NCBI GenBank assembly: GCA_027492635.1
Contig: JAPUEH010000007.1
Span: 1 to 64,000, forward strand
From: Candidatus Saccharimonadota bacterium
Lineage (GTDB): Bacteria > Patescibacteriota > Saccharimonadia > Saccharimonadales > Saccharimonadaceae
Length of the DNA stretch: 64,000 nt
Direction: 5' to 3'
Shown here: positions 29,979 through 45,296 of the stretch, piece by piece
Position numbering within the stretch: the first letter of the stretch is position 1
Layout: every line of letters begins with the position of its first letter
The notes under the pieces: generated by a model
Database searches by the model: none
Seen by the model: the letters and a program-made list of their open reading frames with translations, nothing else
What the model was told of the DNA's origin: nothing
Translations under genes and position numbers: made by a program

Positions 29979-30055
29979 GGCAGCGTAGCTCAGTTGGTTA
30001 GAGCGCAGGACTCATAAGCCTGAGGTCACAGGTTCAATCCCCGTCGCTGCTACCA
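29979..30055 (+). tRNA. Elongator tRNA-Met (CAU)
   Basis: 77 nt with encoded CCA. Acceptor GGCAGCG/CGCTGCT (G1-U72 wobble), D-arm GCTC/GAGC, loop CTCATAA, T-arm ACAGG/CCCGT with the A51-C63 mismatch also known from E. coli elongator tRNA-Met. The top pair of the anticodon stem (A31-G39) does not pair. A promoter directly before the gene is not visible. The nearest one lies before the rearranged leader copy. Confidence 0.93.
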
Positions 30056-30092
30056 TAGAAAAACGGTCACTGGTGTGGCCGTTTTTCTATGG
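30053..30092 (+). terminator. Terminator hairpin beginning with the tRNA-Met CCA
   Basis: An 18-bp stem (one G-T pair) with a TGGT loop, five A in the first strand and five T in the second. The first three bases are the CCA of the tRNA. Confidence 0.88.
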
Positions 30093-30129
30093 GGAGCTTA
30101 CAGATGCTCCATGGATAAGAGATATAGTG

Positions 30130-30852
30130 TTATTCACTTTCGCTGTTGTGCAACGAGTCCACTTCGTGCAAGAACGCCTCACGTAAGCTGCGCTTCGACA
30201 GGCTTGAGATGGCGCGCTCTCGACTTGAGGTGAGCTGTTTTTCGGTGTGTCTTTGGTCGCGATCTTCCTCTATGACATGCGGCTCGCGAGCGCGAGTGTC
30301 GAGTTTGTCTGCTGTGGCCTGCATGGCGTCGACAAGATCAATATCGTTGTCGATGGCTAGACTCTGAAGTGAAGCAAAGGCTGATTCGATGGTGTGCTGC
30401 ATTGTCGGCCGGTCGTCGGGTGCTACCGTATTGCCATGCTCATCTTTCCAAAGACGTTCCATGTGTGGATTCATTTTATCGCAAACGCGTAACATCCCGA
30501 TGAGCGTTTTATCCATTGGGTCGTGAATCGGCGTAAGAGCGCCGTTGTCTATGGAGTAGACGGGGATTTCCTGCGCGTTATCTACATTGATTTCTAGATC
30601 ACCGCTGATTTTTGCTATATGTGACAAGTAGAAAAGACTGTCACCAATTTCTCCGGTTAAATGTTTCTTGTCGAAGTGATCGCTTGCTTTTTCCATAGCG
30701 ATCTCGCGTGCTTCTTCGATAAGTCCACGACGCAAAAGCAGCTCGGGATCGGCAGCAAAAGTATATTGACTGAATTTAGCAATTCGCTCGCGAAAGGTAT
30801 TCCACTCGTCTGTAAGTGGTTTTTGTGAGTTGAACGTATGTTCAAAGGCCAT
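30130..30852 (-). CDS. MazG-like nucleotide pyrophosphohydrolase
   Basis: 240 aa. Residues about 40-85 contain the all-alpha NTP-pyrophosphatase pattern: GLIEEAREIAME followed by TGEIGDSLFYLSHIAK, giving the ExxE and ExxD metal ligands. The remainder (about 90-240) is helical and charged, longer than simple MazG proteins. House-cleaning of modified dNTPs is the likely role. TATAAT (30860-30865 on the minus strand) ends 7 nt before the ATG and has an extended TG. The original -35 box is now 14 kb away because a transposon inserted between the two boxes. Confidence 0.78.
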   Translation of the reverse strand: MAFEHTFNSQKPLTDEWNTFRERIAKFSQYTFAADPELLLRRGLIEEAREIAMEKASDHFDKKHLTGEIGDSLFYLSHIAKISGDLEINVDNAQEIPVYSIDNGALTPIHDPMDKTLIGMLRVCDKMNPHMERLWKDEHGNTVAPDDRPTMQHTIESAFASLQSLAIDNDIDLVDAMQATADKLDTRAREPHVIEEDRDQRHTEKQLTSSRERAISSLSKRSLREAFLHEVDSLHNSESE

Positions 30853-30859
30853 TAAGTAT

Positions 30860-30865
30860 ATTATA
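30860..30865 (-). promoter_or_regulatory. Severed -10 box of the MazG-like gene
   Basis: TGATATAAT reads towards the gene. Its partner TTGACT is at 45310-45315 on the other side of the transposon. With the insert and one target copy removed, the two boxes are exactly 17 nt apart. The extended -10 may still allow some transcription. Confidence 0.75.
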
Positions 30866-30868
30866 TCA

Positions 30869-30876
30869 ATTTATAA
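30869..30876. repeat. Target site duplication, left copy
   Basis: ATTTATAA, identical to 45297-45304. Eight base pairs is the length produced by IS1595-family transposases. Confidence 0.93.
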
Positions 30877-30902
30877 GGCAATTATATACTTGACGTTACC
30901 AA
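30877..30902 (+). repeat. Left terminal inverted repeat
   Basis: It pairs with 45271-45296 with a single G/A difference at position 19 of the repeat. It contains TTGACG, which serves as the -35 box of the transposase promoter. Confidence 0.93.
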
Positions 30903-30918
30903 TCACCCCTGATACAAT
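30890..30918 (+). promoter_or_regulatory. Transposase promoter overlapping the terminal repeat
   Basis: TTGACG (30890-30895) in the repeat, 17-nt spacer, TACAAT (30913-30918), then 6 nt to the ATG. The transcript should be leaderless. Binding of transposase to the repeat would block its own promoter, a plausible feedback (inference). Confidence 0.8.
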
Positions 30919-30924
30919 AGAGGT

Positions 30925-31869
30925 ATGGAAGCATTCAACCTCATTCAATTCTACAACTCATTTGCCACAGAAGAACAGTGTCAAAAGTTCTTGTTTGAGC
31001 AGCGCTGGTCAAACGGCGTTACATGCCCAAAATGTGGCGAAATAGGCGTCAAAGTATACAAACTAAAAACAGGCCGTCTAAAATGCGCAAGCTGCCGTAG
31101 TCCGTTTACGGTGCGTATAGGCAGTATCTTTGAAGATAGCCCCGTGCCACTACAAAAATGGTTCTTGGCTATCTACCTATGTACAAGCCTCAAAAAAGGT
31201 ATATCGTCGCTTCAGCTTAGTCGGTATATTGGCGTTACCCAAAAGACCGCGTGGTTTATGCTCCAGCGTATACGACATGTATTTGAAACAGGCAGCTTTG
31301 AAAAGCTCACTGGCGAGGTTGAAATGGATGAGGCGTATATAGGCGGCTCTGATAAGAACAAACACCATAGTAAGAAGCTCAAGACCCTCACCGGCAAGGG
31401 CGCACAAGGTCACGGCAGCAAGAATAGTAAAGCGCCCGTTGTTGGTATGGTTGAACGCGGCGGCAGACTACGCGCGATTGCTACAAAAGATACTGGCAGC
31501 AATACGCTCATGAACTTGGCACGCAAAAACATCGACATTGACGCGACGATCTACACAGACGAACACATGCCATATCGCACGTTGCCTAAACTTGGTTTCA
31601 AGCACGAAAGCGTCAATCACGGCGTCAAAGAGTTTGTAAACGGTATGGCTAGTACGAACACCGCAGAGAGTTTTTGGTCGCACTTAAAGCGCGGTATCAA
31701 TGGCATTTACCACCATGTCAGCGCCAAGCATTTGCAGCTTTATTGTGACGAGTATAGTTTCCGCTGGAACACACGTGAACTGACTGACGGCGAGCGTTTT
31801 GAGGCTTGGTTTGATAACATCTACGGCAAGCGCCTCATGTATAAAAACCTCACTCGCAAGCGTTCTTAA
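30925..31869 (+). CDS. IS1595-family (ISXO2-like) transposase
   Basis: 314 aa, complete. An N-terminal zinc ribbon (Cys34, Cys37, Cys54, Cys57), a helix-turn-helix region (about 90-115, LQLSRYIGVTQKTAW) and the ISXO2-like catalytic domain with Asp135 (MDEAYIGG), Asp212 (YTDEHMPY), Asn245/Glu248 (NTAESFWSHLKRG) and Lys255. All hallmark residues are present, so it is likely active. It moves the whole 30877-45296 element. ATG 30925 follows the -10 by 6 nt. Confidence 0.95.
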   Translation: MEAFNLIQFYNSFATEEQCQKFLFEQRWSNGVTCPKCGEIGVKVYKLKTGRLKCASCRSPFTVRIGSIFEDSPVPLQKWFLAIYLCTSLKKGISSLQLSRYIGVTQKTAWFMLQRIRHVFETGSFEKLTGEVEMDEAYIGGSDKNKHHSKKLKTLTGKGAQGHGSKNSKAPVVGMVERGGRLRAIATKDTGSNTLMNLARKNIDIDATIYTDEHMPYRTLPKLGFKHESVNHGVKEFVNGMASTNTAESFWSHLKRGINGIYHHVSAKHLQLYCDEYSFRWNTRELTDGERFEAWFDNIYGKRLMYKNLTRKRS

Positions 31870-31969
31870 AAATTAGTTACCGATACCCAAGCTATAAAAC
31901 TCTTTTCTATCTGTTTTTTTCTCTTTCTTTTTCCTCTCTTTTTATATATAAATATAAAGAAGAAAGTGA

Positions 31970-32797
31970 TTGACGATTAGTATGACTGTAGCCAAATACC
32001 ATAGACCCTTAAACTCCGAACAATTAGCAGTATTAAATTGGCTCTATAAATCTCGATTCAGTACCAGTAAACAAATAGCTAAGCATCTAGGTAAACCGAG
32101 CCATAAAGCTATACAAAACAAGCTGCAAATACTGGAAGAACAAGGCTATATTAGCAAGCGTTACCAGCCATCATACAAGCTTGCAGGACGTGCCGCAGAA
32201 TACTTTTTGACACCCAAAGGAGCTAGGACATTACCACCCGATAGTACGAACGAGTGGGCTATAAAAGCCCTCTACAAAAACAAAACCGTGTCGCCGGACT
32301 TTATCGCACATTGTCTGAACGTGGCTGATATAGCGTTGCAGTTACAAGCCCTATATGGCGACAAGCTCCGTCTATTTACCAAAAGCTCCATGGTAGCCTA
32401 TAGCTACTTTCCAACCTGGAAGCCTGATCTCTTCCTGAGCTTCAAGCCCAAAACAAGGCAAGAAGCGCCTCGTCGCTACTTTCTTGATATCTGGGATGAC
32501 ACGACGCCCTTCTTTGTGAGTGTGCGAAAAGCCCGTAATTATATCACTTACGCTGAAGAGGGAGAGTGGCCAACCGATGAGTATGCTTTACCAACTGTTC
32601 TCGCCGTGTGTCAGGACGCCAAGACGCAGAAGAAACTCATGGGACAGATCAAAAGAGCGCTCGACGAAAAATATATTACTGACGAGGTAACATTTGCGAC
32701 AGTGACGAGGGAGCAGCTCGATAAAACCACTGGCACAGCTAAACTATGGCAGAAGATAGATGATGACGATGAAGATTCTGGGCGTATGAGCCTGTGA
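31970..32797 (+). CDS. Replication-relaxation-like protein
   Basis: 275 aa. An N-terminal winged helix (about 15-75, QLAVLNWLYKSRFSTSKQIA then LTPKGAR) plus a C-terminal domain (about 110-260, FIAHCLNVADIALQL and WKPDLFL). This is the layout of the replication-relaxation (Replic_Relax) family often carried by plasmids and integrated elements. It may help replication or transposition of the element. The start is TTG 31970 or ATG 31982. Neither has a good ribosome site, and an AT-rich region with pyrimidine runs precedes it. Confidence 0.75.
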   Translation: MTISMTVAKYHRPLNSEQLAVLNWLYKSRFSTSKQIAKHLGKPSHKAIQNKLQILEEQGYISKRYQPSYKLAGRAAEYFLTPKGARTLPPDSTNEWAIKALYKNKTVSPDFIAHCLNVADIALQLQALYGDKLRLFTKSSMVAYSYFPTWKPDLFLSFKPKTRQEAPRRYFLDIWDDTTPFFVSVRKARNYITYAEEGEWPTDEYALPTVLAVCQDAKTQKKLMGQIKRALDEKYITDEVTFATVTREQLDKTTGTAKLWQKIDDDDEDSGRMSL

Positions 32798-32840
32798 CTA
32801 TTTACCTAACTCCGTAAACGGCTTGCCGTTTGGGGAGTTG

Positions 32841-32865
32841 GCTATTTTTCTGAAAGAAAAATAGC
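32841..32865. terminator. Bidirectional terminator between converging cargo genes
   Basis: An 11-bp perfect stem (32841-32851 with 32855-32865) rich in T/A runs separates the convergent genes at 31970 and 32874. A further long hairpin (32808-32839, AACTCC...GGAGTT with CCGTTT core) stands directly before it. Confidence 0.8.
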
Positions 32866-32873
32866 ATTGCTTC

Positions 32874-33866
32874 CTACAGTACAAAACTAATCTCGATTGT
32901 ATGCTCGCCAAGTGTGCGTGCTTCAATCTGCCCGCCATGTGCTTCAACGATTTGCTGGGCAATCGCCAGTCCTAGACCAAAACCTTCGCCACCTTGATGT
33001 TCGTCGCTTTGGTAGAACCGATCAAACAGGTGCGTGAGTTTGCTTGCATCAAACTCGTCGGCGGTATTGCGGACAGTCACGCGGGCTTTTTTGCCTGCCG
33101 TTTCGCTGCTAATCTCAACGGTCGTGCGTTCATTGGCATACTTCACTGCATTATCGACAAGGTTGCGCAGAACAATACCAATAAGTTCGGTGTCACCTCC
33201 TATTTCATCGGTTTCAAGTGCTGTTTTGAACGAAATGTGCCGCGCCTGTGCTGCGTGGTCGTAGTACTTTATGGCGCTTAGTACCGCATCACTGAGTGAC
33301 ACGGCTTGTTTCTTGATCGTCATCGTGTCATTGAGTCGCGCCAGTAGCAAAAGACTGGTGACGAGCGTGGTCATTTGTTTCACTTCTTCGCGGGTATTGT
33401 AGATTGTGGTTTTGTATTCGTCGGCACTGCGCGGCTTCTTGGCCGCCCAATCAAGATCAGCCAGCATCACCGCCAGCGGTGTGCGGAGTTCGTGCGAGGC
33501 ATTGGCAACAAAACGTTGCTGCGATTTCTGACTCTCGACAAGAGGTTTTAGCGTGCGACGCGAGATGTAGTATGCGGCAAGTGGGATAACTACCAAGGCG
33601 ACCGTGTTGACCGTGATGAGTATGTCACGGAGCTTGTCGAGCGTAATATCTGCCGCCACTGCCGCATCACTATCGGACAACTCGACCGGGTGTTTTGTGG
33701 TGCTATGCTGCTGCTCAAGCGCGTTGTTGATGCGATTGACATAGCCCTCGCCAAGTGAATTATTTACCCAAAGATAGATACCACCACTGAATAACCATAC
33801 AAAGGCAAAAAAGATCAACGAGTATTGGATGGTCAATCGGAGAGTGGTTTGCTTGAGTCCGTTCAT
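32874..33866 (-). CDS. Sensor histidine kinase, system 1
   Basis: 330 aa. Two membrane helices (about 12-32 and 83-103) enclose a short extracytoplasmic sensor loop of about 50 residues. Then come the HisKA phospho-acceptor (FVANASHELRTPLAV) and an HATPase_c domain with the N box (LRNLVDNAVKYA), GEGFGLGLAI (G2 box). The start overlaps the stop of its response regulator (4 bp), so the pair is coupled. The stimulus is unknown. Position in the redox cluster suggests a redox or metal cue (inference). Confidence 0.92.
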   Translation of the reverse strand: MNGLKQTTLRLTIQYSLIFFAFVWLFSGGIYLWVNNSLGEGYVNRINNALEQQHSTTKHPVELSDSDAAVAADITLDKLRDILITVNTVALVVIPLAAYYISRRTLKPLVESQKSQQRFVANASHELRTPLAVMLADLDWAAKKPRSADEYKTTIYNTREEVKQMTTLVTSLLLLARLNDTMTIKKQAVSLSDAVLSAIKYYDHAAQARHISFKTALETDEIGGDTELIGIVLRNLVDNAVKYANERTTVEISSETAGKKARVTVRNTADEFDASKLTHLFDRFYQSDEHQGGEGFGLGLAIAQQIVEAHGGQIEARTLGEHTIEISFVL

Positions 33867-34534
33867 GCGTCTAACCTGTAGCCCAGATTGCGGACGGTTG
33901 TGATAAGTTCCTTGCTACTATCAACATCACGCAGGCGTTTACGGAGATATCGTACATAGGTTTCTACCACGTTCGACAAGCCATCATAATTCATATCCCA
34001 GACATGCTCTAAGAGATCGTTCTTTGAAAGCAATTCGCCCGCATGATACATGAAGTAGCTTAGCAGCGTATATTCTTTGGCGGTTAGCGGCAACAGAGTG
34101 CCTTTGTATGTCACGCTCTTTGTCGCTGGATTTAACACCAGCTCGCCAATAATCAGGATAGTCGGGCGACCGTTACCACTACGTCGGAGGAGCGCCCGCA
34201 CCCGTGCCGACAATTCACCGTCTGAAAATGGCTTAACGAGATAATCGTCAGCACCGCTATCCAGCCCTTTGATGCGATCATCAACACCATCGAGTGCGGT
34301 CAGCATGAGAATTGGAATGTCCGTATTGGAACGTCGTATTTCTTGGCAAACCTCTATGCCGTCTTTGATTGGCAACATTATATCTAAAATGATGAGATCG
34401 TAATTGTTGATATCAAACTTGTCGATTGCTTCTTGACCGTCTGAGGCGATATCTACCGCATAGCCATCTTCGATGAGCGAGCGCTTGAGCAGCCCTGCCA
34501 GACGTTTCTGATCTTCAACCAATAATAATTGCAT
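33863..34534 (-). CDS. OmpR-family response regulator, system 1
   Basis: 223 aa. The receiver domain (1-118) has the phospho-acceptor Asp in LIILDIMLP and Lys in LVKPF. A C-terminal winged-helix Trans_reg_C domain follows (about 128-223, EYTLLSYFMYHAGELLSK). TACAAT (34541-34546 on the minus strand) ends 6 nt before the ATG, and the gap AGGAGT can also act as a ribosome site, so this pair has its own promoter inside the element. Confidence 0.94.
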   Translation of the reverse strand: MQLLLVEDQKRLAGLLKRSLIEDGYAVDIASDGQEAIDKFDINNYDLIILDIMLPIKDGIEVCQEIRRSNTDIPILMLTALDGVDDRIKGLDSGADDYLVKPFSDGELSARVRALLRRSGNGRPTILIIGELVLNPATKSVTYKGTLLPLTAKEYTLLSYFMYHAGELLSKNDLLEHVWDMNYDGLSNVVETYVRYLRKRLRDVDSSKELITTVRNLGYRLDA

Positions 34535-34627
34535 ACTCCTATTGTACTCAATGAAAGATGAGAGGTGCGTGATAAGTTCCTATTTTAATCTCACGTTTGT
34601 TTCATACAGGGCTTTTTATACTAATAT

Positions 34628-36154
34628 CTATACATCATATCCAGGGAAGTAATCCGTCTTAATATGGCCACGGGGTACGCCAAGACCTAGCAAAGCGCCT
34701 TGCACGCTGACAACCATTTGATGACTGCCTGAAATGTAGAATATGCGGCTGCGATAATCGGGTACGGTCGCTTGGATTGCGGCTGCGTCCACATATCCGA
34801 CACGTGTATTTGGTGCTGGATTTTGGCTCTGATCAGGCTTCGCCAGCACATAGGTCGTTGCAATATTCAGTTGTTGTCTTGCTTGCTCAAAGACATCACC
34901 GTAGGCAATGTCCTGTAAGTTATTGGCGGCGTACAGCACCTTTACATCGCGTTGTTCATTTTTATCGATCAGGTATTTCACCATGCTACGGAATGGTGTG
35001 ACCCCAATACCACCGGCGATAAAAACTAGCTTCTGTTTTTTGCTAAGCGGTAGGACAAAATCACCGGCAACTTGGGCGGCCACGATTTGCGTCTTGTCAG
35101 TCATATCGAGCATTGCTTTCTTGTAGCTGCTACTTGGTTCGTAGAACTTAATGCCGAGCCGTAGTGTTGCTTCCGTTGGTGATGATGCCAGTGTGAAGTA
35201 ACGGCGATTACCACGGCTATCGATGCCAGTATGCGGCAACGTCCACTCCATGTATTGCCCCGGCCGATATGAGAGTTTCTTGTCAGAATTAAAGACAAAA
35301 TCGACACTATTGGCTGCAATCCTAAGTTTTTGCGTCAGTACTGGGAAAACTCGAACGCGTGGATTCACGATATAGGCGAATACGTTGCCGATGACTAAGG
35401 CAATTTCTGGTGATGTATAGAAGCTAAAAATATGTACTTGCGGTGGTACGAGGAGGCCGACTAATATGCCGAACCACGTTTGTTTGTCTTTCGTACCTGG
35501 CGAAGTTAGTGGCTCGGTTAGCATCACGAACGCTAAGAAGAACACTGGCGAAGTCAGGGCTGCTTGTTTGAGTGCTGTTAGCGCATCACCGTGGCTCAGT
35601 ATGGTAAAGACTGCTGTTGCAATAAATGTTGATAGCAGAAAACCAATTACCATTGCTTCGCGCCTGATCTTGCGTACTACCAAGAAGCCGCCGACTAAAA
35701 CGAATGGTAGCATGGTAGCCGTGCCGACCCACCAACTTGCATCTTGCCGTGGCCCGATCGCGGTGAGGACGACAGCAATTGCCGCTGGATTGAAGATATG
35801 CACATCACGTATGGTCAGGACGTACTTCGATGCCATAGCAAGGCCAGAGGCAGCGAGTAAGAACAAGAGGTCATACTGGCCAAGTTTTGGCGTAATGAGC
35901 AGCGCCAAAATGAGTGCCGTAATGATCGATGACTCGTGGTTCATCGGTACATGAAACACATATGCAAAGACGCGGTTGATGCCCCAACAGGCGGCTAGTA
36001 GAATCGCGGTGGATACCAATAGAGCAACCGGACTGAATCCGAGATTTCCAAATAGACTGACGACAAATGCGATGCCCAGCAGTCCACCTAGGTAGTAAAT
36101 AAGCAGACGATACATGGTCGTCTTATTGAGAAAATCATCAATGCTTTTAAGCAT
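34628..36154 (-). CDS. NqrB/RnfD-like membrane domain fused to a ferredoxin reductase-type domain
   Basis: 508 aa from ATG 36154. Residues about 10-275 hold around nine membrane helices with NqrB/RnfD features (HIFNPAAIAVVL and FVMLTEPLTSPGTKD). Residues about 280-508 are an FNR-type FAD/NAD(P)H domain with RRYFTLASSP (FAD) and GGIGVTPFRSM (nucleotide), ending YISGSHQMV. The protein could take electrons from cytoplasmic NAD(P)H across the membrane. With ApbE and an FMN-binding protein alongside, the acceptor is probably the external flavoprotein. The start overlaps apbE by 8 bp. Confidence 0.88.
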   Translation of the reverse strand: MLKSIDDFLNKTTMYRLLIYYLGGLLGIAFVVSLFGNLGFSPVALLVSTAILLAACWGINRVFAYVFHVPMNHESSIITALILALLITPKLGQYDLLFLLAASGLAMASKYVLTIRDVHIFNPAAIAVVLTAIGPRQDASWWVGTATMLPFVLVGGFLVVRKIRREAMVIGFLLSTFIATAVFTILSHGDALTALKQAALTSPVFFLAFVMLTEPLTSPGTKDKQTWFGILVGLLVPPQVHIFSFYTSPEIALVIGNVFAYIVNPRVRVFPVLTQKLRIAANSVDFVFNSDKKLSYRPGQYMEWTLPHTGIDSRGNRRYFTLASSPTEATLRLGIKFYEPSSSYKKAMLDMTDKTQIVAAQVAGDFVLPLSKKQKLVFIAGGIGVTPFRSMVKYLIDKNEQRDVKVLYAANNLQDIAYGDVFEQARQQLNIATTYVLAKPDQSQNPAPNTRVGYVDAAAIQATVPDYRSRIFYISGSHQMVVSVQGALLGLGVPRGHIKTDYFPGYDV

Positions 36155-36884
36155 GTACGTACTCCTTGAAGCCGCTCGTATAGGTGGCCATGCCATTGTT
36201 ATCTACGAGGTAACCCTCAAGCCCGTCGCGCTGCTCGATGAACGCTATGCCGTTCATGCCCATTGCAAATGCAGCCGTGGCAAAGCGATCGGCTTCGTAG
36301 ACATTTGCCGCAACAACCGTGAGGCTCTGCACGCCGTGTGGGGCTTCTTCTGGCTGGTGTGGATTATAGATATGCTGTCCACGAATGTACGTGCCTGATG
36401 TTGCAACACCACAGTTATGCATATGCAGTGTCTTGATAATCTCATCTGTATTAAACGGATTGCGAATGCCGACAGTCCATGGCTCATGCTCACTATTCAC
36501 GCCTTGGGCTTGAATATCGCCCCCGGCTTCAATGTAAAAGTTGCGGAGGCCACGCTTTTCTAACTGCTTGGCTGCTTCCCAAATAGACCAGCCCTTGACG
36601 AGGCCAGACGGGTCAAGTTTGCCGTCATGTTTGATATCAAAATAGCCGTCAGTTTCTTGCTTTGTTTCCTCACAGAGCTGCATGATTTCCTGCATTTCAG
36701 GACTCCAATCGCTGCGCGGCATACCGTTATTGATCTGAGTAATTTCACTGTCATCTTTGTAGGTACTGTAGCGACGATCTACCTTATTGAAAAAAGCAAA
36801 GGTGTCAGCAAGTAGCTGTGTATCTTCCGAGTCCGTAATCTCAACAGTAATTGGCATGCCCATGATGATTTTTGTTTGTTTCAT
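36147..36884 (-). CDS. apbE: FAD:protein FMN transferase
   Basis: 245 aa. The ApbE family transfers FMN from FAD to a Ser/Thr of extracytoplasmic proteins. Recognisable segments: MGMPITVEI at the start, DPSGLVKGWSI (about 91-101), YIEAGGDIQAQG, SGTYIRGQHIYNPH and ADRFATAAFAMG. No signal peptide is seen. Bacterial ApbE is often exported as a lipoprotein, so where this one acts is uncertain. It lies 6 bp after its likely substrate (FMN_bind protein) and overlaps the NqrB-FNR gene. Confidence 0.94.
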   Translation of the reverse strand: MKQTKIIMGMPITVEITDSEDTQLLADTFAFFNKVDRRYSTYKDDSEITQINNGMPRSDWSPEMQEIMQLCEETKQETDGYFDIKHDGKLDPSGLVKGWSIWEAAKQLEKRGLRNFYIEAGGDIQAQGVNSEHEPWTVGIRNPFNTDEIIKTLHMHNCGVATSGTYIRGQHIYNPHQPEEAPHGVQSLTVVAANVYEADRFATAAFAMGMNGIAFIEQRDGLEGYLVDNNGMATYTSGFKEYVHA

Positions 36885-36890
36885 GAGGCC

Positions 36891-37445
36891 TTACGATGCC
36901 TGAGACAGTGCATTGCTGAGTGACTGTATGAATGCCTGACTGGTGTACGTTGCACCACTTATGATATTGACGTTTGCACTCTGCGCTTTAATAGCCTCTT
37001 GCTGGAGGTATGGCATAGCCTGTTGGTTAATGTAGACCGATGTTGAGTGTGTGTGAGGGTAATCTAAGAACGCGACACTGGTAAGCTTGCCACCTGAAAT
37101 CGTAGCTTTTACTTGTACGTTGCCGTAGTAAGCATCTTCGGTGCTACCTGTGTATGAGCCGTCCTTGTACGCTCCTGTACTCGTGCTGGACTGGCTTGAA
37201 CCTTGGCTGCTACTTGACGATGAAGATGATGGCGAGTTGCCGCTTGAGGTAGTATCATCGCCACCACTACCGCTACTTGTACTCTCCTCACTAGGAGGCG
37301 TGCTGGTGGTATTCGACTTGTTATTATTCGAGGTATCCGCTGTTAATGATGAGGGTGCGCTAATCTTTGGTTGTTCGTGACGGACGAATAGGCTATAACC
37401 AACAAGTGTTACAAGTACAGCCAGTCCAATAGATGCTTTCTTCAT
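36891..37445 (-). CDS. Membrane-anchored FMN-binding (flavinylated) protein
   Basis: 184 aa from ATG 37445. One N-terminal membrane helix (about 5-24), a long Ser/Thr-rich flexible linker (about 30-95) and an FMN_bind domain (about 98-184) ending with the flavinylation motif SGATYTS, where ApbE attaches FMN to a Thr. It should be a surface electron carrier on a tether. TATAGT followed 7 nt later by the ATG gives a possible internal leaderless promoter. The frame extending to 37502 overlaps the kinase and is less likely. Confidence 0.9.
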   Translation of the reverse strand: MKKASIGLAVLVTLVGYSLFVRHEQPKISAPSSLTADTSNNNKSNTTSTPPSEESTSSGSGGDDTTSSGNSPSSSSSSSSQGSSQSSTSTGAYKDGSYTGSTEDAYYGNVQVKATISGGKLTSVAFLDYPHTHSTSVYINQQAMPYLQQEAIKAQSANVNIISGATYTSQAFIQSLSNALSQAS

Positions 37446-37491
37446 ACCTACAACTATACGAATTAAGCCTGTAGGTTTGCTTACTGGCCGC

Positions 37492-38484
37492 TTATGGCGC
37501 AATCGGCAATGTTACGGTGACAGTTGTGCCATGATTTTCTTGACTCTCGATCTTTGCCTGACCGCGATGCGCCCTGATGATTTCCTGCGCTAATGGCAAG
37601 CCAAGCCCATAGCCTGATGCATGTTTTGTTTTGCTAGTATTTTGCGATCGATAGAAGTACTCAAAGATATGCGGCAGATCATCGGCCGGTATGCCAACGC
37701 CTTTATCTTTAATGGTAAGTACGGCATGTGCCATATCAGCCTTGAGTGAGACAGTAACTGTGGTATTTTCGTGACTGTATTTAATGGCATTATCGATAAA
37801 GATGATGACGAGCTGCTCTAGAGTACGTTGATCGCCCATGACCTGAACCGGCTTAATCGTCGATTTGAGGGTGATGTGCTTCTCGTCTGCTTTATGGGTG
37901 AGTTGCTTAATGGCTTGGCGTGTTAGCTCATCGAAATCAAGCACGCCAAGTTTTGGTGCCGAGCCGTTATGGTAGCGAGCGATATCCAGTAGGTTTGTTG
38001 TCAGTTGTTCGAGCCGCCCAATATCTTGCAAGTTACCCTCCAATGTACGCCTTGCTTTAGCGGTTAAGCCTTTCTCCATGAGCGCAACTTCAGTATCGGC
38101 GCGTATCGCAGCTAGTGGTGTGCGAAGTTCATGGCTGGCCTCGGCGGTAAAACGAATTTGTGCCGTATGCGCCTGTTCAATTGGCCGCAGTGTTCGTCGA
38201 GCTAAAAAGTAACCGAAAACGGATGAACCAGCAATAACAGTGATATTGAACCAGACTAATTCACCGAGCAGATGCTTGCTGTGTTCTTGTATCGCAGCAT
38301 GCGGTGGCGGCACATTATCGTTGTCATGATCATCGGTTGATATGAGGCTGCTGTATTGCCGGTTAAGTGCCTCATCGAGTTCTTCAGTTGAAAGATGATA
38401 CACGACAACACTGTACGCAAGGCAAAGCGTGGCCGCTAATAGCACATACCAAAGGGTAAGTTTGACCGTTGCCGATTTAAACAT
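37492..38484 (-). CDS. Sensor histidine kinase, system 2
   Basis: 330 aa. Two membrane helices (about 8-28 and 75-95), an extracytoplasmic loop of about 45 residues containing several His and Asp (DDHDNDNVPPPHAAIQEHSK), which could bind a metal, then HisKA (FTAEASHELRTPLAA) and HATPase_c (IFIDNAIKYSHENT, GYGLGLPLA). It begins one base after the regulator's stop. System 1 has the same arrangement, so the element encodes two related but distinct sensors. Confidence 0.92.
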   Translation of the reverse strand: MFKSATVKLTLWYVLLAATLCLAYSVVVYHLSTEELDEALNRQYSSLISTDDHDNDNVPPPHAAIQEHSKHLLGELVWFNITVIAGSSVFGYFLARRTLRPIEQAHTAQIRFTAEASHELRTPLAAIRADTEVALMEKGLTAKARRTLEGNLQDIGRLEQLTTNLLDIARYHNGSAPKLGVLDFDELTRQAIKQLTHKADEKHITLKSTIKPVQVMGDQRTLEQLVIIFIDNAIKYSHENTTVTVSLKADMAHAVLTIKDKGVGIPADDLPHIFEYFYRSQNTSKTKHASGYGLGLPLAQEIIRAHRGQAKIESQENHGTTVTVTLPIAP

Positions 38485-39168
38485 TTAGGCGATTACTCCT
38501 AGCTGATAACCAAACCCTCGAACCGTATGTATAAGTGGTGGCCTGTCGGGGAAATTAGCGTCTATCTTTTTGCGAAGATAGCCCATGTATACCTCGACAG
38601 TATTAGGCACGATCAGCGCATCTTCGTCCCAGACATGAGTGATAATCTTGTCTTTGCTTATCACTTGACCCTGATTGTAAAGCATATACTCCAGCAATTT
38701 TATTTCCTTGTTCGAGAGCGACAGCTGCTTACCGCTGCGTGTAGCTTGAAATGTCACAGGGTCATATTGCAGGTCATCGATTTTCAGTGTCGTGCCAAGT
38801 GTGTAGCGAGGTCGACGAAACAGTGTTTGTACGCGAGCAATCAGTTCTTTCATGGCAAACGGCTTCTGCAGATAGTCATCAGCACCGGCTTGCAAGCCGA
38901 CTACCCGATCATCAACTTCACCTAGTGCAGTCAACATAATGATCGGCGTATCGACACCTTGGTTACGTAATTCCTGGGCTATGCCAATACCGTCGTTATT
39001 CCCAGGCAACATGCGATCAAGAATGACCATATCATAGTCTGGATGGGCTGCAGCAGTAAGACCACTATCTGCATCATGCACAATATCGACTGCATAGTGA
39101 TGCAGTTCAAGGGCGCGTTTTATAGCTTCAGCAATACGGGCTTCATCTTCAACGACAAGTAGGCGCAT
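38485..39168 (-). CDS. OmpR-family response regulator, system 2
   Basis: 227 aa. Receiver domain with Asp in MVILDRMLP and Lys in LQKPF, then a winged-helix output domain ending in HTVRGFGYQLGV. It is the first gene of the redox operon. TACAAT (39175-39180 on the minus strand) ends 6 nt before the ATG, so the operon promoter gives a leaderless message. It probably controls the flavin electron-transfer genes that follow. Confidence 0.94.
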   Translation of the reverse strand: MRLLVVEDEARIAEAIKRALELHHYAVDIVHDADSGLTAAAHPDYDMVILDRMLPGNNDGIGIAQELRNQGVDTPIIMLTALGEVDDRVVGLQAGADDYLQKPFAMKELIARVQTLFRRPRYTLGTTLKIDDLQYDPVTFQATRSGKQLSLSNKEIKLLEYMLYNQGQVISKDKIITHVWDEDALIVPNTVEVYMGYLRKKIDANFPDRPPLIHTVRGFGYQLGVIA

Positions 39169-39212
39169 AGTACTATTGTATACTAACTGGCTTGCAGTTT
39201 GCTTACAATCAG

Positions 39213-39390
39213 CTAGACATTTGCGCCAATAAAGTAAGTAATTACCATAGCTGTCGTACCACCAAAAAATACCCGTAGAGCAGCTATGATCTTATGACCA
39301 CCGCAAATGACAGCTCCCACTGCACCCGAAATGGTCAAAATAGACAGAATGGCAAGGCGGTCAAAAAGACGCCGAAACAAACGACTAACA
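39213..39390 (-). pseudogene. Remnant of a VIT/CCC1-type metal transporter
   Basis: On the minus strand the frame ending with TAG at 39213-39215 reads AVGAVICGGHKIIAAL then RVFFGGTTAMVITYFIGANV. It resembles the last two helices of VIT-family iron/manganese transporters (conserved GG...TYxIG end). No start codon or upstream domain is left. The fragment stops near a terminator at 39418. It suggests that the element once carried a metal transporter beside the redox operon. Confidence 0.5.
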
Positions 39391-39417
39391 AAACTATAGT
39401 TATAGTGCTGTATACAG

Positions 39418-39454
39418 ATACGGCTTGGCCTGCGAGACCAAGCCGTATTATTTT
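39418..39454 (+). terminator. Terminator-like hairpin, first of a pair
   Basis: Stem ATACGGCTTGG with CCAAGCCGTAT (11 bp), 9-nt loop, then TATTTT. The region 39545-39600 repeats the same arrangement (GGCTTG...CAAGCC, T-run, CTCACGTTC), so the two hairpins look like a diverged tandem duplication. Confidence 0.75.
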
Positions 39455-39538
39455 GCTCTCACGTTCGTATCACATTTGGAGGTTCATACTAGAGAGTGTA
39501 TACATTCGTATACTCCTAGAAAGGAGGGTCAAATAAAC

Positions 39539-39610
39539 ATGCGAGTATGGCTTGGCAAGGAGCGGCAAGCCATATTTTTTATGTCACATTCTCACGTTCA
39601 TCCCATCTAG
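39539..39610 (+). CDS. Possible 23-codon leader peptide overlapping a terminator
   Basis: ATG 39539 follows AAAGGAGGG by about 11 nt, and the frame runs 23 codons to TAG (start MRVWLGKERQ, His-rich end). Its codons 3-14 form the second terminator hairpin, as in attenuators where leader translation decides termination. DedA follows 56 bp later. No homologue recognised. It may be a chance ORF. Confidence 0.3.
   Translation: MRVWLGKERQAIFFMSHSHVHPI
39546..39580 (+). terminator. Terminator-like hairpin, second of a pair, before dedA
   Basis: Stem TATGGCTTG with CAAGCCATA (9 bp) followed by TTTTTT. It is located between an AGGAGGG site and the dedA gene, and may attenuate the downstream operon. 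A CTCCT/AGGAG pairing just upstream (39513-39527) could hide the ribosome site. Confidence 0.7.
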
Positions 39611-39666
39611 CATCAGGCATACTAACCACATGAACAATCTGCTATCAAGAAAACGGAGTATTTGCT

Positions 39667-40287
39667 GTGCTGCATAATTTACTCGACCCGGTGTACTGGC
39701 TGACATTTGGCTATGTTGGGCTTGCCGTGATTGTGTTTGCCGAATCGGGGTTACTAGCTGGTTTTTTCTTGCCGGGTGATACACTACTGATTACTGCTGG
39801 CATACTTGCGTCGCAAGGACATCTCAATATCTTTCTGACGCTAGTGATCGTTGTTGTCGCGGCAATCGTTGGTGATAGCGTCGGCTATTTTATCGGCTCA
39901 AAAGTTGGACCGAAACTGTTTACGCGACCGGACTCACGCTTTTTCTCGCAAAAGAACCTGCACGAAGCCCATGCGTTCTTTGAAAAGTACGGTGCGCAGT
40001 CGATTATCTTTGCGCGGTTTGTGCCGATCGTGCGTACGTTCATACCGACAATCGCTGGTGTGAGCAAACTGTCATACAAAAAGTTCCTGACCTATAACGT
40101 GCTTGGCGGTACGCTGTGGGGCTTGGTGGTGACACTGCTTGGCTATACGCTTGGCCGTATCATTCCGAATATGGATCACTATATTTTGCCAGTTGTGATT
40201 GTCGTTATGGTCGTGTCCTTTATTCCAGCCGTCGTCCATTTGCAAAAACGCAAACACGCAAAGACAACGGAGGTGACTAATGATTGA
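39667..40287 (+). CDS. DedA-family membrane protein
   Basis: 206 aa with the DedA/VTT pattern: FAESGLLAGFFLPGDTLL (about 24-41), GDSVGYFIGSKVG (re-entrant loop) and FARFVPIVRTFIPTIAGVSK (about 116-135). Members move lipids such as undecaprenyl phosphate or phospholipids across the membrane and depend on proton-motive force. The start is GTG 39667 with CGGAG upstream. It overlaps the PAP2 phosphatase gene by 8 bp, and together they could recycle undecaprenyl phosphate. Confidence 0.92.
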   Translation: MLHNLLDPVYWLTFGYVGLAVIVFAESGLLAGFFLPGDTLLITAGILASQGHLNIFLTLVIVVVAAIVGDSVGYFIGSKVGPKLFTRPDSRFFSQKNLHEAHAFFEKYGAQSIIFARFVPIVRTFIPTIAGVSKLSYKKFLTYNVLGGTLWGLVVTLLGYTLGRIIPNMDHYILPVVIVVMVVSFIPAVVHLQKRKHAKTTEVTND

Positions 40288-40780
40288 TGGGCTGATCGTT
40301 TTTGTAGCGCAGTATCTCTTTTTTGTGCTGCCACTCCTCGCTGCGATCATCTTTTTTCGCTTGCCAAGCGGTGAGCGCAAAAAGTATTTCATATCACTAG
40401 CGATCGGTGGCATCTGCGCGTTTATCCTCGCCAAGCTTGCGGGGCTAGTAATTACCGACCCACGCCCATTTGTGAGTGAGCATCTTGTGCCACTGTTTTC
40501 GCACGCACCGGACAACGGCTTTCCATCAGATCATACGACGTTTGGTACGACGCTGGCGTTCATCAGCTTTTTCTATGCTCGTAAGTGGGGGCTAGTGATG
40601 ATTCCAGTAGCTATTCTGATCGGTGCTGCCCGCGTATTTGCTCATGTCCATCACTGGTCTGACATTCTTGGTGGTATTGCCGTCGGGCTGATTGCTGCAA
40701 CGATAGCCGTATCTCTCACTATCATAGTAGCCAAAAATCTGTCTCGACGACACAATGGAGGAGAAGTTCATGCCTTATAG
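40280..40780 (+). CDS. PAP2-family membrane phosphatase
   Basis: 166 aa with five or six helices and the three phosphatase motifs: KLAGLVITDPRPF (motif 1), FPSDHTTF (motif 2, catalytic His) and ARVFAHVHHWSDILGG (motif 3). It probably removes phosphate from undecaprenyl pyrophosphate or another lipid phosphate on the outer membrane face. Coupled to dedA by overlap. Confidence 0.9.
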   Translation: MIDGLIVFVAQYLFFVLPLLAAIIFFRLPSGERKKYFISLAIGGICAFILAKLAGLVITDPRPFVSEHLVPLFSHAPDNGFPSDHTTFGTTLAFISFFYARKWGLVMIPVAILIGAARVFAHVHHWSDILGGIAVGLIAATIAVSLTIIVAKNLSRRHNGGEVHAL

Positions 40781-40831
40781 CGCAGGTACCTCATCATGTT
40801 ATCATATTCACGCTGCTACAATGAAATGTAT

Positions 40832-41629
40832 ATGGCTGTAGAGCATCACCGTACCGCTCATCGCGTTGCCTGGCAAACTGTCACGAAAGTACCGCAGATC
40901 GCGGCGATCTTTTGGGTAGTCAAACTGCTCACAACTGCGCTTGGCGAGGCTGCCGCAGATTATTCGGTGCTAGTTATCAATCCGTATGTTGCCGTGATTG
41001 GTGGCTTTTTGTTGCTACTGGTAGCACTGACACTTCAGTTCAGGGCGAAAGAATATAAACCGGCGACTTACTGGTTTGCCGTCGCTATGGTAGCGGTATT
41101 TGGCACGATGGCGGCCGACGTACTACATATTCAATTTGGGGTATCGTACCTCGCTTCGACGATCTTTTTTGCAGTGAGTATGCTCGTGATGTTCGGATTG
41201 TGGTACAAGGTTGAGGGAACGCTCTCAATCCATAGTATTCATACCCCACGCCGCGAGGCATTCTACTGGCTAACGATCATGGCAACCTTTGCGCTCGGTA
41301 CGGCTGCTGGTGATATGACGGCGATGACGCTCAACCTTGGCTACTTCGATTCTATCCTCCTGTTCGGTGTGCTGATCGCTATTCCGGCGGTCGCATACTG
41401 GCTATTCAATGCTAACGCTATCCTCACATTTTGGTGCGCCTATGTGCTAACACGGCCACTTGGCGCATCGGTGGCTGATTGGCTCGGCAAGCCGCATAGC
41501 ATCGGTGGTATGGGCTACGGTGATGGTCTAGTGACATTGGTACTGACGACCCTGCTTGTCATCGCGGTCGGCTATTTGGCGGTGTCGCACGGAGATAGCC
41601 AGCGACGCATAGCAAGTAAATCGCACTAG
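40832..41629 (+). CDS. COG4705-like membrane protein with internal repeats
   Basis: 265 aa from ATG 40832. About eight helices, with a repeated TTALGEAAADY / GTMAADV / GTAAGDMTAM / RPLGASVADW pattern, so the fold is built from four similar units each with a conserved small-residue/Asp motif. This matches the uncharacterised COG4705 family. TACAAT (40817-40822) ends 9 nt before the ATG (leaderless). In-frame starts at 40796 and 40826 are less likely. Confidence 0.78.
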   Translation: MAVEHHRTAHRVAWQTVTKVPQIAAIFWVVKLLTTALGEAAADYSVLVINPYVAVIGGFLLLLVALTLQFRAKEYKPATYWFAVAMVAVFGTMAADVLHIQFGVSYLASTIFFAVSMLVMFGLWYKVEGTLSIHSIHTPRREAFYWLTIMATFALGTAAGDMTAMTLNLGYFDSILLFGVLIAIPAVAYWLFNANAILTFWCAYVLTRPLGASVADWLGKPHSIGGMGYGDGLVTLVLTTLLVIAVGYLAVSHGDSQRRIASKSH

Positions 41630-41676
41630 CATTTCTCACGCTGGTCTCATATATAGATGACTATACTCGGCAGTAG

Positions 41677-42414
41677 ATGAAAGCTATTGCCATCGAAACC
41701 CACGATCTCAGCCTTGTATACGGGGCTAAGCCTGCCGTCAAAAGTCTCAACCTCACCGTAAAGACTGGCGAGATATTCGGCTTGCTCGGACATAATGGTG
41801 CGGGTAAAACAACCACCGTGAGTCTCCTCACGACATTACTGACACCGACCAGCGGCACGGCGTCGGTGCTTGGGCATGACATCGTAAAGCAATCACGCGC
41901 TGTCCAGCAGTCAATCGGCTACTTGCCCGAGAACGTCCAGTTTTACGACAATATGACGCTCTATGAAAATCTTGAGTATTTCGGCAAGTTATCGGGCTTG
42001 AAAAACCCGCGTAAACGCATCGCTGAGGTACTTGAACTGCTTGATTTCACCGGACACGATAACGAACGACTGGCAACATTCAGTAAGGGTATGCGCCAGC
42101 GCGTCGGTATCGCACAGGCGATCTTGCATAAGCCAAAGTTATTATTCCTCGACGAGCCGACATCCGGCCTCGACCCGCAAGGTGTCAAAAGCTTGCGTGA
42201 TCTTATTTTGAAGCTCAATAAGGAGCTTGGCATCACCATTTTTATGAATACACACTTACTATCAGAGGTGACGCAGACCTGTACGAGTATCGGTATTTTG
42301 AGATCGGGTGTGCTGATTTACCAGAACTCGCTGGCTGATACGCTCAAACGATTTGCAGGCAACGGGTCGCTTGAAGATATCTACCTACAAATCGACACGA
42401 CGACGGAGCGGTAA
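41677..42414 (+). CDS. ABC transporter ATP-binding protein (ABC-2 exporter)
   Basis: 245 aa. Walker A GHNGAGKTTT (about 39-48), Q-loop region YLPENVQFYD, signature FSKGMRQRVGIAQ (LSGGQ variant), Walker B LLFLDEPTSGLD and switch His in NTHLLSE. It powers the two permeases that follow. The set resembles NosF/NosY-type ABC-2 systems. TATACT (41662-41667) ends 9 nt before the ATG, giving a leaderless operon start. Confidence 0.94.
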   Translation: MKAIAIETHDLSLVYGAKPAVKSLNLTVKTGEIFGLLGHNGAGKTTTVSLLTTLLTPTSGTASVLGHDIVKQSRAVQQSIGYLPENVQFYDNMTLYENLEYFGKLSGLKNPRKRIAEVLELLDFTGHDNERLATFSKGMRQRVGIAQAILHKPKLLFLDEPTSGLDPQGVKSLRDLILKLNKELGITIFMNTHLLSEVTQTCTSIGILRSGVLIYQNSLADTLKRFAGNGSLEDIYLQIDTTTER

Positions 42415-42416
42415 CG

Positions 42417-43313
42417 ATGTTCGCGGCGACGATACGACACGAGATAAAAGCAGCCAGGCGGGAGCGGCTACCGCAACTTATCTTGATCGTATTTCTGTTC
42501 ATGGTCGCAGCCGCTAGTTTTATCGGCTGGCTGACGCATGAAACGGTTACGAGTGTTTACAATGAAGCCTTGCGCCAAGGCGCGACGACCCAGCCAAATC
42601 CGTTTCTCCAAATCCCGCAGCTCGACCCGGTAAAAAATGTCGTTATCTATATGGCGCTGATCGGGGCGTTGTTCGCGGTACTGATCGGGGTACGTTCCAG
42701 TGTGCGTGACCGAAAATCACGCGTGCTTGACTTGGTATTTAGTCGGCCAGTAAGTAAACGGCAATATGTCGCGGCTCGCTTTATTGGCATGGCGATCTGG
42801 TTGGGGGTAATTACGGTTATTGCTGCGGTACTGACATGGCTTAGTCTATGGATTGTCCAAGGTCACGCTACCTCTCTCGGGAATACCGGACGACTTCTGG
42901 CATTTTTTGCCTTGAGCTGGCTGTTTCTGTTGCCGTTTATGGCACTTGGCATGATGAGCGGTATGCGTGCCAAGGGCGAGACGACGGCGCTGCTCGTGCC
43001 AATTCTGGTGTGGGCGCTTGTGACCTTTGTTGTGCCGCAGTTTGGCACTGCCGAAGAACCGATCTCGTTTCTCAACCCTGTACCGGCACAACCCGCCTCT
43101 GAGGGTGCTTTCTTTCAAATAAACCACCAAGTGCTTCAACCGTTTTCGTTTACCGATCACTACAAAGAATTGAGCGCGGCATCACTCCATTTTACCGACG
43201 ATCACGACACTACAAGACAAATGCTTGAGTTTGCATTGATCGTTGGCGTGACAGTCGTACCGTTGCTTGTCTGTGCGCCGCAACTGATGCGCAAGGGAGA
43301 ACTCTATGAGTAG
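42417..43313 (+). CDS. ABC-2 permease, subunit 1
   Basis: 298 aa, six helices with a large extracytoplasmic loop between helices 1 and 2 (about 40-75). The coupling segment RDRKSRVLDLVFSRPVSKRQYVAARF is typical of NosY-like ABC-2 permeases. It starts 2 bp after the ATPase stop and overlaps the next permease by 8 bp. Confidence 0.88.
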   Translation: MFAATIRHEIKAARRERLPQLILIVFLFMVAAASFIGWLTHETVTSVYNEALRQGATTQPNPFLQIPQLDPVKNVVIYMALIGALFAVLIGVRSSVRDRKSRVLDLVFSRPVSKRQYVAARFIGMAIWLGVITVIAAVLTWLSLWIVQGHATSLGNTGRLLAFFALSWLFLLPFMALGMMSGMRAKGETTALLVPILVWALVTFVVPQFGTAEEPISFLNPVPAQPASEGAFFQINHQVLQPFSFTDHYKELSAASLHFTDDHDTTRQMLEFALIVGVTVVPLLVCAPQLMRKGELYE

Positions 43314-44289
43314 TATGGCATGGTGGGTTATCGGCAAAAAGGACTTGCGTGATATGCGCCGCAGCGGGCTATTTGTGGCGCTGCTGGCTGGGTTGTGCGC
43401 CCTGATCTTAGCCTCGATTGTCGTGTCGGCAGTTGCGTTTCATGCGCAGGTGGCAGATTACCAGCACTATCTTGACGCGCTCAAACAGGCCGGTAGCACC
43501 GCGACGCCCGCCAATGCGCCAGAGTTTTACCCGCTACAACAGTTGATCGGCGGCATCGAATACCTTGAGATTATCGGTGCGCTGCTGGCTATCGTGATCG
43601 GTTATGGGATTATCACCAAGGAAAAATCGAGGGGTACACTTTTGCTCCTCTTGAGCCGTCCGCTACGCAGTAAAGATATTGCGATCGGTAAGCTGACCGC
43701 ATTGGCGATTACGTGGGCAGTCTTTAGTTGTTGTATCGGGTTTGGCATGGTGGCTATCTTGCTGTTGATCGGCGGTGCGCATATCTCAGGGATTGATTAT
43801 GTTCGCATCATTGAAACTGCCGCACTCGCAGCTGTCTACTTGTTCTTTTGGAGCGCGGTAGGGCTGGGGTTGGCAGCATGGGCAAAGCAACCATCGACCG
43901 CCCTGATCGTCGGGTTGATGTTGTGGTTGGTCGTCGTGCTAGTTTTGCCGCAAATTGGCGACACGATGGATCCGGATAACCAAGTGCCAGGCGGTTTATT
44001 CAACAGTTTGCAAATCGCTCGACCGCAGCAGCACGACATCATGGCACATTTTAGCGGCTATGAGAACGGGCGCAACTATGTCGAAAGTGCCTCTGTCGAA
44101 AAGCATTTTGAGCGGTCAACGTTCGGGTTTACCGGCATCAAACCAATCTATAATCAGCAATCGCTCGGGTATGTCTTCGCGCACCTGTGGGGCAATATCG
44201 TGACGGTGTGTGCATGGGCGCTTGGCGGCACGCTCTGGGCGATCTGGCAATGTAATAAGAAACGACTACTTAGAAAGGAGTCAATATGA
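43306..44289 (+). CDS. ABC-2 permease, subunit 2
   Basis: 327 aa, six helices plus an extracytoplasmic loop (about 40-75) and another late loop. The segment KEKSRGTLLLLLSRPLRSKDIAIGKL is the same coupling helix as in subunit 1. The two permeases probably form a heterodimer with a homodimeric ATPase. The GGGAG before ATG 43306 supports the start. It overlaps the next gene by 4 bp. Confidence 0.88.
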   Translation: MSSMAWWVIGKKDLRDMRRSGLFVALLAGLCALILASIVVSAVAFHAQVADYQHYLDALKQAGSTATPANAPEFYPLQQLIGGIEYLEIIGALLAIVIGYGIITKEKSRGTLLLLLSRPLRSKDIAIGKLTALAITWAVFSCCIGFGMVAILLLIGGAHISGIDYVRIIETAALAAVYLFFWSAVGLGLAAWAKQPSTALIVGLMLWLVVVLVLPQIGDTMDPDNQVPGGLFNSLQIARPQQHDIMAHFSGYENGRNYVESASVEKHFERSTFGFTGIKPIYNQQSLGYVFAHLWGNIVTVCAWALGGTLWAIWQCNKKRLLRKESI

Positions 44290-44867
44290 AAAAGAACACT
44301 ATAGGCATCATTATCGGGGCGGTTATCGTCGTAGGCGGAGGCGCAGCGTACCTCTACTACACGAATAGTGGTAGTAATCCGTCGCAAACAAACACCACGA
44401 ACACAACATCTCAGAATCAAACACCGACAGTTTTGCCGGTAAAAGATAATCCGATTAAAAACACCTCAACACAGGCCGGTTTGACCATTACTAATGCGCA
44501 GGTTGAAAACAATACCGACCCAGCGACAGGCGCGGCAGTTAATGATCGCATCCAGTTTACGATTCAAAATAGCAGCAGCCAGCCAGCGCAAAACCTTGAA
44601 GCCTACTACACCATGACCGACGCCAAGACGAAACAAAGTGAAAGCTACTACCAAAAACTTGATGGCGTGACAATCGAACCTGGCAAGAGTATGACCGTCT
44701 TCTTTGATAACGGCACGGGTACTGGTCACTACCCAGACAACAAGTACAGTATTTACCATACCTCACAAAACGCGGTAGACTTTTCAATCGAAGTCAGCGC
44801 GACCGGTCTGAAGCCAGCAACTGCTCAAGCACAAAAAGGTAGCGGCTCTGGCGATACGAAAGACTAG
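44286..44867 (+). CDS. Membrane-anchored beta-rich protein of the ABC operon
   Basis: 193 aa. An N-terminal membrane helix (about 6-27), an Asn/Thr/Gln-rich linker (about 28-55) and a beta-sandwich-like domain (about 60-165, LTITNAQVEN, RIQFTIQNSSS). There is no lipobox cysteine, so it is anchored by the helix. AGAAAGGAG before ATG and overlap with the permease gene show it belongs to the exporter, perhaps as a substrate-delivery or receptor part (inference). Confidence 0.7.
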   Translation: MKKNTIGIIIGAVIVVGGGAAYLYYTNSGSNPSQTNTTNTTSQNQTPTVLPVKDNPIKNTSTQAGLTITNAQVENNTDPATGAAVNDRIQFTIQNSSSQPAQNLEAYYTMTDAKTKQSESYYQKLDGVTIEPGKSMTVFFDNGTGTGHYPDNKYSIYHTSQNAVDFSIEVSATGLKPATAQAQKGSGSGDTKD

Positions 44868-45006
44868 CACGCTATGCCAAAAAAAGGTGGGAATTAAAAT
44901 CACCATGAATCAACAATTCTACTCAAACGCAAGATAAAAAAGCGAAAAGCAACCAAAGTTCTTGGCGACTAAAACCAGCCACACTACTTTTTGCTATAAT
45001 CAAGAT

Positions 45007-45234: not shown

Positions 45235-45270
45235 ATAATTTCTTTTTAGAGAATCTCACCTCTGTATAAT

Positions 45271-45296
45271 TTGGTAATGTCAAGTATATAATTGCC
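45271..45296 (-). repeat. Right terminal inverted repeat
   Basis: Inverted copy of 30877-30902 with one difference (TTGACA here, TTGACG at the left end). It also contains TATAAT directed outwards, which might act on neighbours. Confidence 0.93.

Follow-up and report, generated by a model that had tools for sequence, protein, structure and literature searches.

A probable flavin-based electron-transfer cassette as cargo of an IS1595-family transposon in Saccharibacteria

The window analyzed here comprises 64,000 nt of contig JAPUEH010000007.1 (full contig 258,602 bp) from a Candidatus Saccharimonadota bacterium. Seven genes on its minus strand (32874–39168) encode a putative flavin-based electron-transfer core and two two-component systems; judged from their sequence context, they are cargo of a complete 14,420-bp IS1595-family transposon that spans positions 30877–45296. 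We put a probability of roughly 0.7 on the full reading, i.e., that a recently active cargo transposon of this family carries a flavin cassette working as an electron outlet. Whereas the flavin system by itself has been described before, the transposon vehicle, its family, and a conserved ApbE flavin transferase lacking a signal peptide are new. An earlier note had described the seven genes, and all seven open reading frames lie at the positions and on the strand given there, in agreement with Pfam. Its coordinates were nevertheless too narrow for the mobile unit, and it overlooked the transposon itself, its other cargo, and the signal-less ApbE. Mobility, which it had asserted without proof, is borne out by terminal inverted repeats (TIRs), target-site duplications (TSDs), and a near-identical copy in another species.

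Ends, transposase, and second copy of the element

The 26-bp left TIR GGCAATTATATACTTGACGTTACCAA (30877–30902, plus strand) pairs with the right TIR (45271–45296, minus strand); the two are identical at 25 of 26 positions and begin with GG. Outside them lies the 8-bp TSD ATTTATAA, present at 30869–30876 and again at 45297–45304. The left repeat contains the −35 element of the transposase promoter, given by a promoter scan as TTGACG-17-TACAAT, and is followed by an intact gene for a 314-aa transposase (30925–31869, plus strand) with the Pfam domains DDE_Tnp_IS1595 (E = 2.7e-46) and, at the N-terminus, Zn_ribbon_IS1595. Plasmid homologs of this protein (~43%) carry the annotation IS1595 family transposase, and 8-bp duplications, GG at the termini, and a zinc ribbon at the N-terminus are all listed for IS1595 elements or for Merlin, their eukaryotic relatives (PMC8101967). 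The second core gene of the element family (31970–32797, plus strand) encodes a Replic_Relax-like protein (RepRel; Pfam Replic_Relax, E = 7.7e-18); of candidate relaxase or type IV secretion genes, the window element carries only this one, with a MobC-like match below threshold (23 bits vs. 200).

A genome of another species in the same genus (G002) holds window positions 30876–45296 as one block at 99.36% nucleotide identity, whereas the sequences flanking the element in the window have their G002 counterparts at another chromosomal location, with ~67–77% identity (88% for a short tract at the tRNA). The G002 copy is flanked on both sides by TAAGATTA, unlike the ATTTATAA of the window, and occupies a different insertion site. 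In three further genomes (G000, G001, and G003), the sequences on either side of the G002 insertion adjoin each other and the element is absent. With a 258,602-bp contig around the window and one contig of 1.08 Mb for the whole of G002, mis-assembly is unlikely. At the level of sequence, near-identical copies at two sites imply recent transposition. The two copies differ at 92 positions, with 51 in the kilobase around the DUF347 gene and 26 around the end of the sensor gene HKb (both described below); elsewhere they are ~0.1% divergent, and most single changes in other genes are silent. Such patchy divergence suggests gene conversion with a third version. No clean empty site corresponding to the window's own insertion point was found among relatives, which carry other DNA there. 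This point (window 29979–30868) lies near a tRNA-Met and looks like an insertion hotspot, since the corresponding place in G001 and G002 holds other DNA (~5 and ~10 kb). An Rfam scan matched three tRNAs only.

The flavin core and its signal-less ApbE

The flavin core consists of a membrane-tethered FMN_bind protein with an SGATYTS motif for flavin mononucleotide (FMN) attachment (36891–37502; Pfam FMN_bind 38.8 bits, cut-off 22), a compact 245-aa ApbE (36147–36884; Pfam ApbE 147 bits), and an NqrB/RnfD-like membrane domain fused to an FNR domain for flavin adenine dinucleotide (FAD) and NAD(P)H (34628–36196; NQR2_RnfD_RnfE 35.4 bits, cut-off 27.7, and NAD_binding_1 54.5 bits, both above the gathering score), all on the minus strand. 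Homologs make ATG 37445 (184 aa) a more likely start for the FMN protein than TTG 37502; by the same comparison, NqrB-FNR probably starts near 36154. The order FMN_bind, ApbE, NqrB-FNR is kept in most of 80 related loci from Saccharibacteria, other members of the candidate phyla radiation (CPR), and Chloroflexi, so this three-gene core is no chance arrangement. The earlier note had proposed looking for the same seven-gene set in other genomes; the core recurs in most of these loci, and eight of them also have one two-component system, RRb-HKb. In a phylogenetic tree, the NqrB-FNR of the element groups with those of loci L003 and L004 inside a Saccharibacteria clade, and paralogs from the host family (~37% identity) fall far outside it. 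G002 has such a second, native NqrB-FNR (L106, G002:C1:710275–711774; 37% identity), whose adjoining ApbE-like gene likewise seemingly lacks a signal peptide. An ApbE-FMN_bind fusion in L043 proved to be an artefact of overlapping frames.

AlphaFold 2 (AF2) models of single chains were confident for both NqrB-FNR and ApbE, with predicted local distance difference test scores of 90.3 and 94.1, respectively. The FNR half of NqrB-FNR matches NqrF (Z = 26.7, root-mean-square deviation 2.3, 237 residues aligned) and its membrane half matches RnfD (Z = 24.1, deviation 3.8, 254 aligned). The FAD and NAD(P)H motifs of the FNR domain are invariant in 41 sequences, and direct reading of the NqrB/RnfD-like domain revealed no SGAT-type motif. 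In ApbE, residues His171 and Asp199/Thr203 are invariant in 44 sequences and align with the conserved His and the EAD..T motif of solved ApbEs.

The window ApbE has neither the signal peptide nor the lipobox of an extracytosolic (secreted) ApbE. Its first ATG lies two codons after an in-frame stop, the first core strand of the AF2 model begins at residue 2, and residue 1 aligns to residues 42–46 of FmnB and TM1553, with the match to TM1553 extending over residues 1–245 (Z = 29.7). All 44 aligned ApbE proteins, i.e., that of the window and 43 relatives, start alike and lack a signal peptide. Its presumed substrate has one N-terminal transmembrane segment in addition to SGATYTS; this anchor is positive-inside and N-in in 49 of 58 decided cases, and the protein has a linker of 64 residues, 83% of which are S/T/N/G/P/Q. 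A search of the genome, which is 96% complete, did not find TatC; this speaks against twin-arginine (Tat) export of a folded flavoprotein.

Two sensors, further cargo, and related elements

The earlier note regarded two sensors around one short pathway as unusual. Gene neighborhoods instead assign the two sensors to two cassettes, RRb-HKb to the flavin genes and RRa-HKa to DedA-PAP2-DUF347. The OmpR-type response regulator RRb (38485–39168, minus strand) and the sensor histidine kinase HKb (37492–38484, minus strand), both supported by Pfam, lie upstream of FMN_bind in eight other loci (L003–L008, L010, and L013). In contrast, homologs of HKa (32874–33866, minus strand; Pfam HisKA and HATPase_c) and of the OmpR-type regulator RRa (33863–34534, minus strand; Response_reg and Trans_reg_C) are divergent to DedA-PAP2 in G206; in G026, and in G002 at a locus away from the element, they adjoin DUF347. 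No flavin genes were found in the stretches adjoining these three places, the distant NqrB-FNR of G026 being 12 kb off. A box, TCTCACGTTTGTTTCA...TATACTA (34589–34623, plus strand), is a possible RRa-regulated promoter; the same box occurs at other RRa/DedA genes, with TCTCAYGTTCGTATCA and then TATACTA preceding RRa in G026 and in the native G002 locus and DedA in the window. The flavin cassette appears to have been inserted between RRa and DedA, splitting the DedA-PAP2-DUF347 cassette, because the region upstream of the window RRa aligns to its G206 counterpart (64% over 145 nt, E = 2e-10) and a putative remnant (DAETND*; 39371–39388, plus strand) persists in the window, which by a short match corresponds to the last codons of the small peptide gene separating RRa from DedA in G206. 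Genes for small exported acidic peptides (~68–80 aa, with ETND) adjoin two-component systems of the RRa-HKa type at three places (L180, L178, and L176); such a peptide may act on the sensor as a signal or as a partner that binds metal.

The remaining cargo, all on the plus strand, begins with a DedA/VTT protein resembling an undecaprenyl-phosphate transporter (39667–40287) and a PAP2 phosphatase resembling an undecaprenyl-diphosphatase (40280–40780), each below equivalog cut-offs. There follow a DUF347 membrane protein (40796–41629; Pfam E = 5.6e-46), an ATP-binding cassette (ABC) exporter (41677–44289) made up of an ATPase (41677–42414) and two ABC-2 permeases (42417–43313 and 43306–44289), and a 193-aa protein without a confident family (44286–44867). 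The right-end protein orf90 (44962–45234) also occurs terminally in two other elements, those of G097 and L003.

Inward-facing pairs of the same repeat occurred in three further genomes among 61 relatives, with no matches to a reversed control pattern in the same set, and four more complete elements emerged when 295 genomes from the order were searched for the transposase. Including the window and G002, nine complete elements of 4.7–16.9 kb were thus recovered, all with exact 8-bp TSDs, GG-starting TIRs, and a transposase, although the latter is truncated in G016. The other seven share the ends but carry other cargo. A RepRel homolog adjoins the transposase in G029, G018, G097, G114, and G184, is reduced to a fragment in G177, and was not found in G016. 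Cargo comprises Ku and a dehydrogenase in G177, a sortase in G114, and Shedu, methyltransferase, and PrnB-like genes in G097. The G018 element (L128, G018:C1:818269–826433) encodes a sortase, a reverse transcriptase, and a 667-aa surface-like protein ending in GGSGFRVVQSRF, a gene content suggestive of a diversity-generating retroelement. Type IV secretion-like ATPases or TrbL are encoded by the G184, G029, and G097 elements; that of G184 (L154, G184:C1, 5464–19421), with VirB4/TraG-like ATPases, TrbL, a type IV secretion pilin domain, and a pair of genes for a major facilitator superfamily transporter and a TetR regulator, is possibly a conjugative or self-transmissible version. The G029 (L126) and G097 (L152) elements carry an ~890-aa TrwB/TraG-like ATPase and RadC, together with an AAA_13 ATPase in G029 and, in G097, the Shedu SduA protein (possible defence cargo).

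Decayed relatives were also encountered. L003 retains one repeat, orf90, a Replic_Relax remnant, and a five-gene flavin cassette (NqrB-FNR 82% identical); since this decayed element also holds the cassette, the cassette has travelled with the element family repeatedly or for a long time. A lone terminal repeat in G016 (L129, G016:C4:99693–99718), with two mismatches and no partner within 12 kb, is a remnant of another decayed element. In viral contigs, an 18-mer of the TIR often accompanies more distant IS1595 transposases (35–42% identity) without flavin genes, and no NqrB-FNR was confirmed in such contigs.

Proposed function and comparison with known systems

From gene content, order, and predicted fold, we infer both the electron flow and the flavinylation of this cassette. 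The FNR domain would take electrons from NAD(P)H onto FAD and the NqrB/RnfD-like domain would pass them across the membrane to the membrane-tethered FMN protein. The latter, with flavin attached by ApbE to its SGATYTS motif, may in turn hand them to a small extracytosolic acceptor, e.g., ferric iron, quinone, or oxygen. For a minimal cell living by fermentation, such an outlet would regenerate NAD(P)+. RRb-HKb would control the flavin cassette (RRb-HKb-FMN_bind-ApbE-NqrB/FNR), and RRa-HKa an envelope or metal-stress cassette (DedA-PAP2-DUF347-ABC). The logic of this route, from NAD(P)H through a membrane flavoprotein to a surface FMN protein, had been put forward in the earlier note and agrees with the published system described below.

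Several observations weigh against this electron-outlet reading. A PDB sequence search with the NqrB half gave no matches and its Pfam score is modest (35 bits), no terminal reductase lies within the element, and the assignment of two-component systems to genes draws on neighborhood and one sequence box. ApbE, moreover, seems to reside in the cytosol, yet the domain that it would flavinylate seems to lie outside it. Either flavinylation precedes Sec export, ApbE leaves the cell by another route, or the FMN domain lies inside. Attachment before export is pointed to by the combination of an ApbE without a signal peptide, an FMN protein that looks exported, and the non-detection of TatC, and we tentatively favour it among the three; it would remove the need for FAD export. 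An extended version is equally tentative, namely that in the NQR/RNF-like systems of CPR and Chloroflexi a cytosolic ApbE flavinylates the nascent or unfolded FMN_bind protein, which is then exported by Sec, and that the IS1595 cargo family spreads this kit among Saccharibacteria. If the FMN domain instead faced the cytosol, the system would be a membrane-tethered cytosolic NAD(P)H:flavoprotein reductase and ApbE would work where it is made, as the signal-less ApbE in 44 proteins and the missing TatC would allow; we consider this improbable given the positive-inside anchors, a long linker rich in Ser/Thr/Asn/Gly, as is usual for exported regions, and a published complex model that places the FMN domain outside (PMC11334425).

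The whole element might alternatively be chiefly a metal- or envelope-stress resistance transposon, in which the flavin cassette detoxifies or precipitates metal at the surface, in concert with export by DUF347 and recycling of undecaprenyl phosphate, rather than serving as an electron sink. In Frankia, DUF347 has been suggested to export lead and is co-expressed with UppP (PMC4531530). DedA and PAP2 are similar to UptA and to undecaprenyl-diphosphatase, the highest subfamily score of HKa, still under the cut-off, is to the heavy-metal sensors CztS/SilS/CopS, and DUF347 lies ~4 kb from flavin genes in G058. We regard this as a serious rival, though a less probable one: no DUF347 homolog was found in the flanks of the 80 flavin loci from genome contigs, the HKb sensor loop has no conserved metal ligands across nine proteins, and a known metal reductase or metal ATPase is absent from the element. 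A chromosomal operon of the usual kind that merely adjoins an IS1595 copy of separate origin, with the near-identity to G002 reflecting close relatedness or assembly error, might be suspected because IS1595 elements are usually single transposase genes (PMC8101967), making a 14-kb unit unusual. The pairing of TIRs and TSDs at both sites refutes this explanation: the TIRs enclose the whole block, the TSDs differ between sites, the flanks are far more diverged than the element, and both contigs are long.

Loss of most respiratory functions is assumed for very small episymbionts. A transposon with exact boundaries and an electron-export kit would offer minimal cells a concrete route to regain them, and, since the element is shared near-identically between species, such cells apparently gain the trait in one jump. 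Its ends, transposase, and target duplication also provide a testable vehicle for moving DNA in Saccharibacteria.

Judged by its sequences, the flavin core is an NQR/RNF-like system (Meheust et al., 2021), a type reported from CPR and Actinobacteria (PMC8238504; PMC11334425, mSystems 2024). It shares with these the FMN_bind protein, an ApbE with catalytic residues, and a PF03116-type membrane domain that is fused to a PF00175 domain and, as published, lacks an FMN-attachment motif. It differs in that a complete transposon carries it as cargo, together with a two-component system dedicated to it. The portions of those descriptions available to us do not remark on a signal-less ApbE, and such proteins may have passed unremarked because, for Meheust et al. 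(PMC8238504), it sufficed that one target gene out of four encoded a signal peptide. Their conservation brings into question the cellular location of flavin attachment in NQR/RNF-like systems. We found no report in the open literature of this transposon vehicle and its family, of a conserved signal-less ApbE, or of IS1595 elements with flavin cargo in Saccharibacteria.

In Listeria, the ApbE-type FmnB flavinylates a surface protein that is fed by NADH (FmnB, PplA, and Ndh2). The window ApbE aligns to FmnB at Z ~28, but it begins where the solved FmnB domain begins (residue 42); in addition, NADH oxidation and membrane crossing would be combined in one NqrB-FNR protein, unlike in Listeria. The vehicle itself resembles IS1595 (ISXO2-like) elements in its DDE_Tnp_IS1595 and zinc-ribbon transposase, GG ends, and 8-bp TSDs. 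The IS1595 family is said to include members with passenger genes. Published descriptions give elements of ~1 kb, usually with a single transposase gene; in contrast, the family described here reaches 4.7–16.9 kb, carries variable cargo, and has a conserved RepRel beside the transposase.

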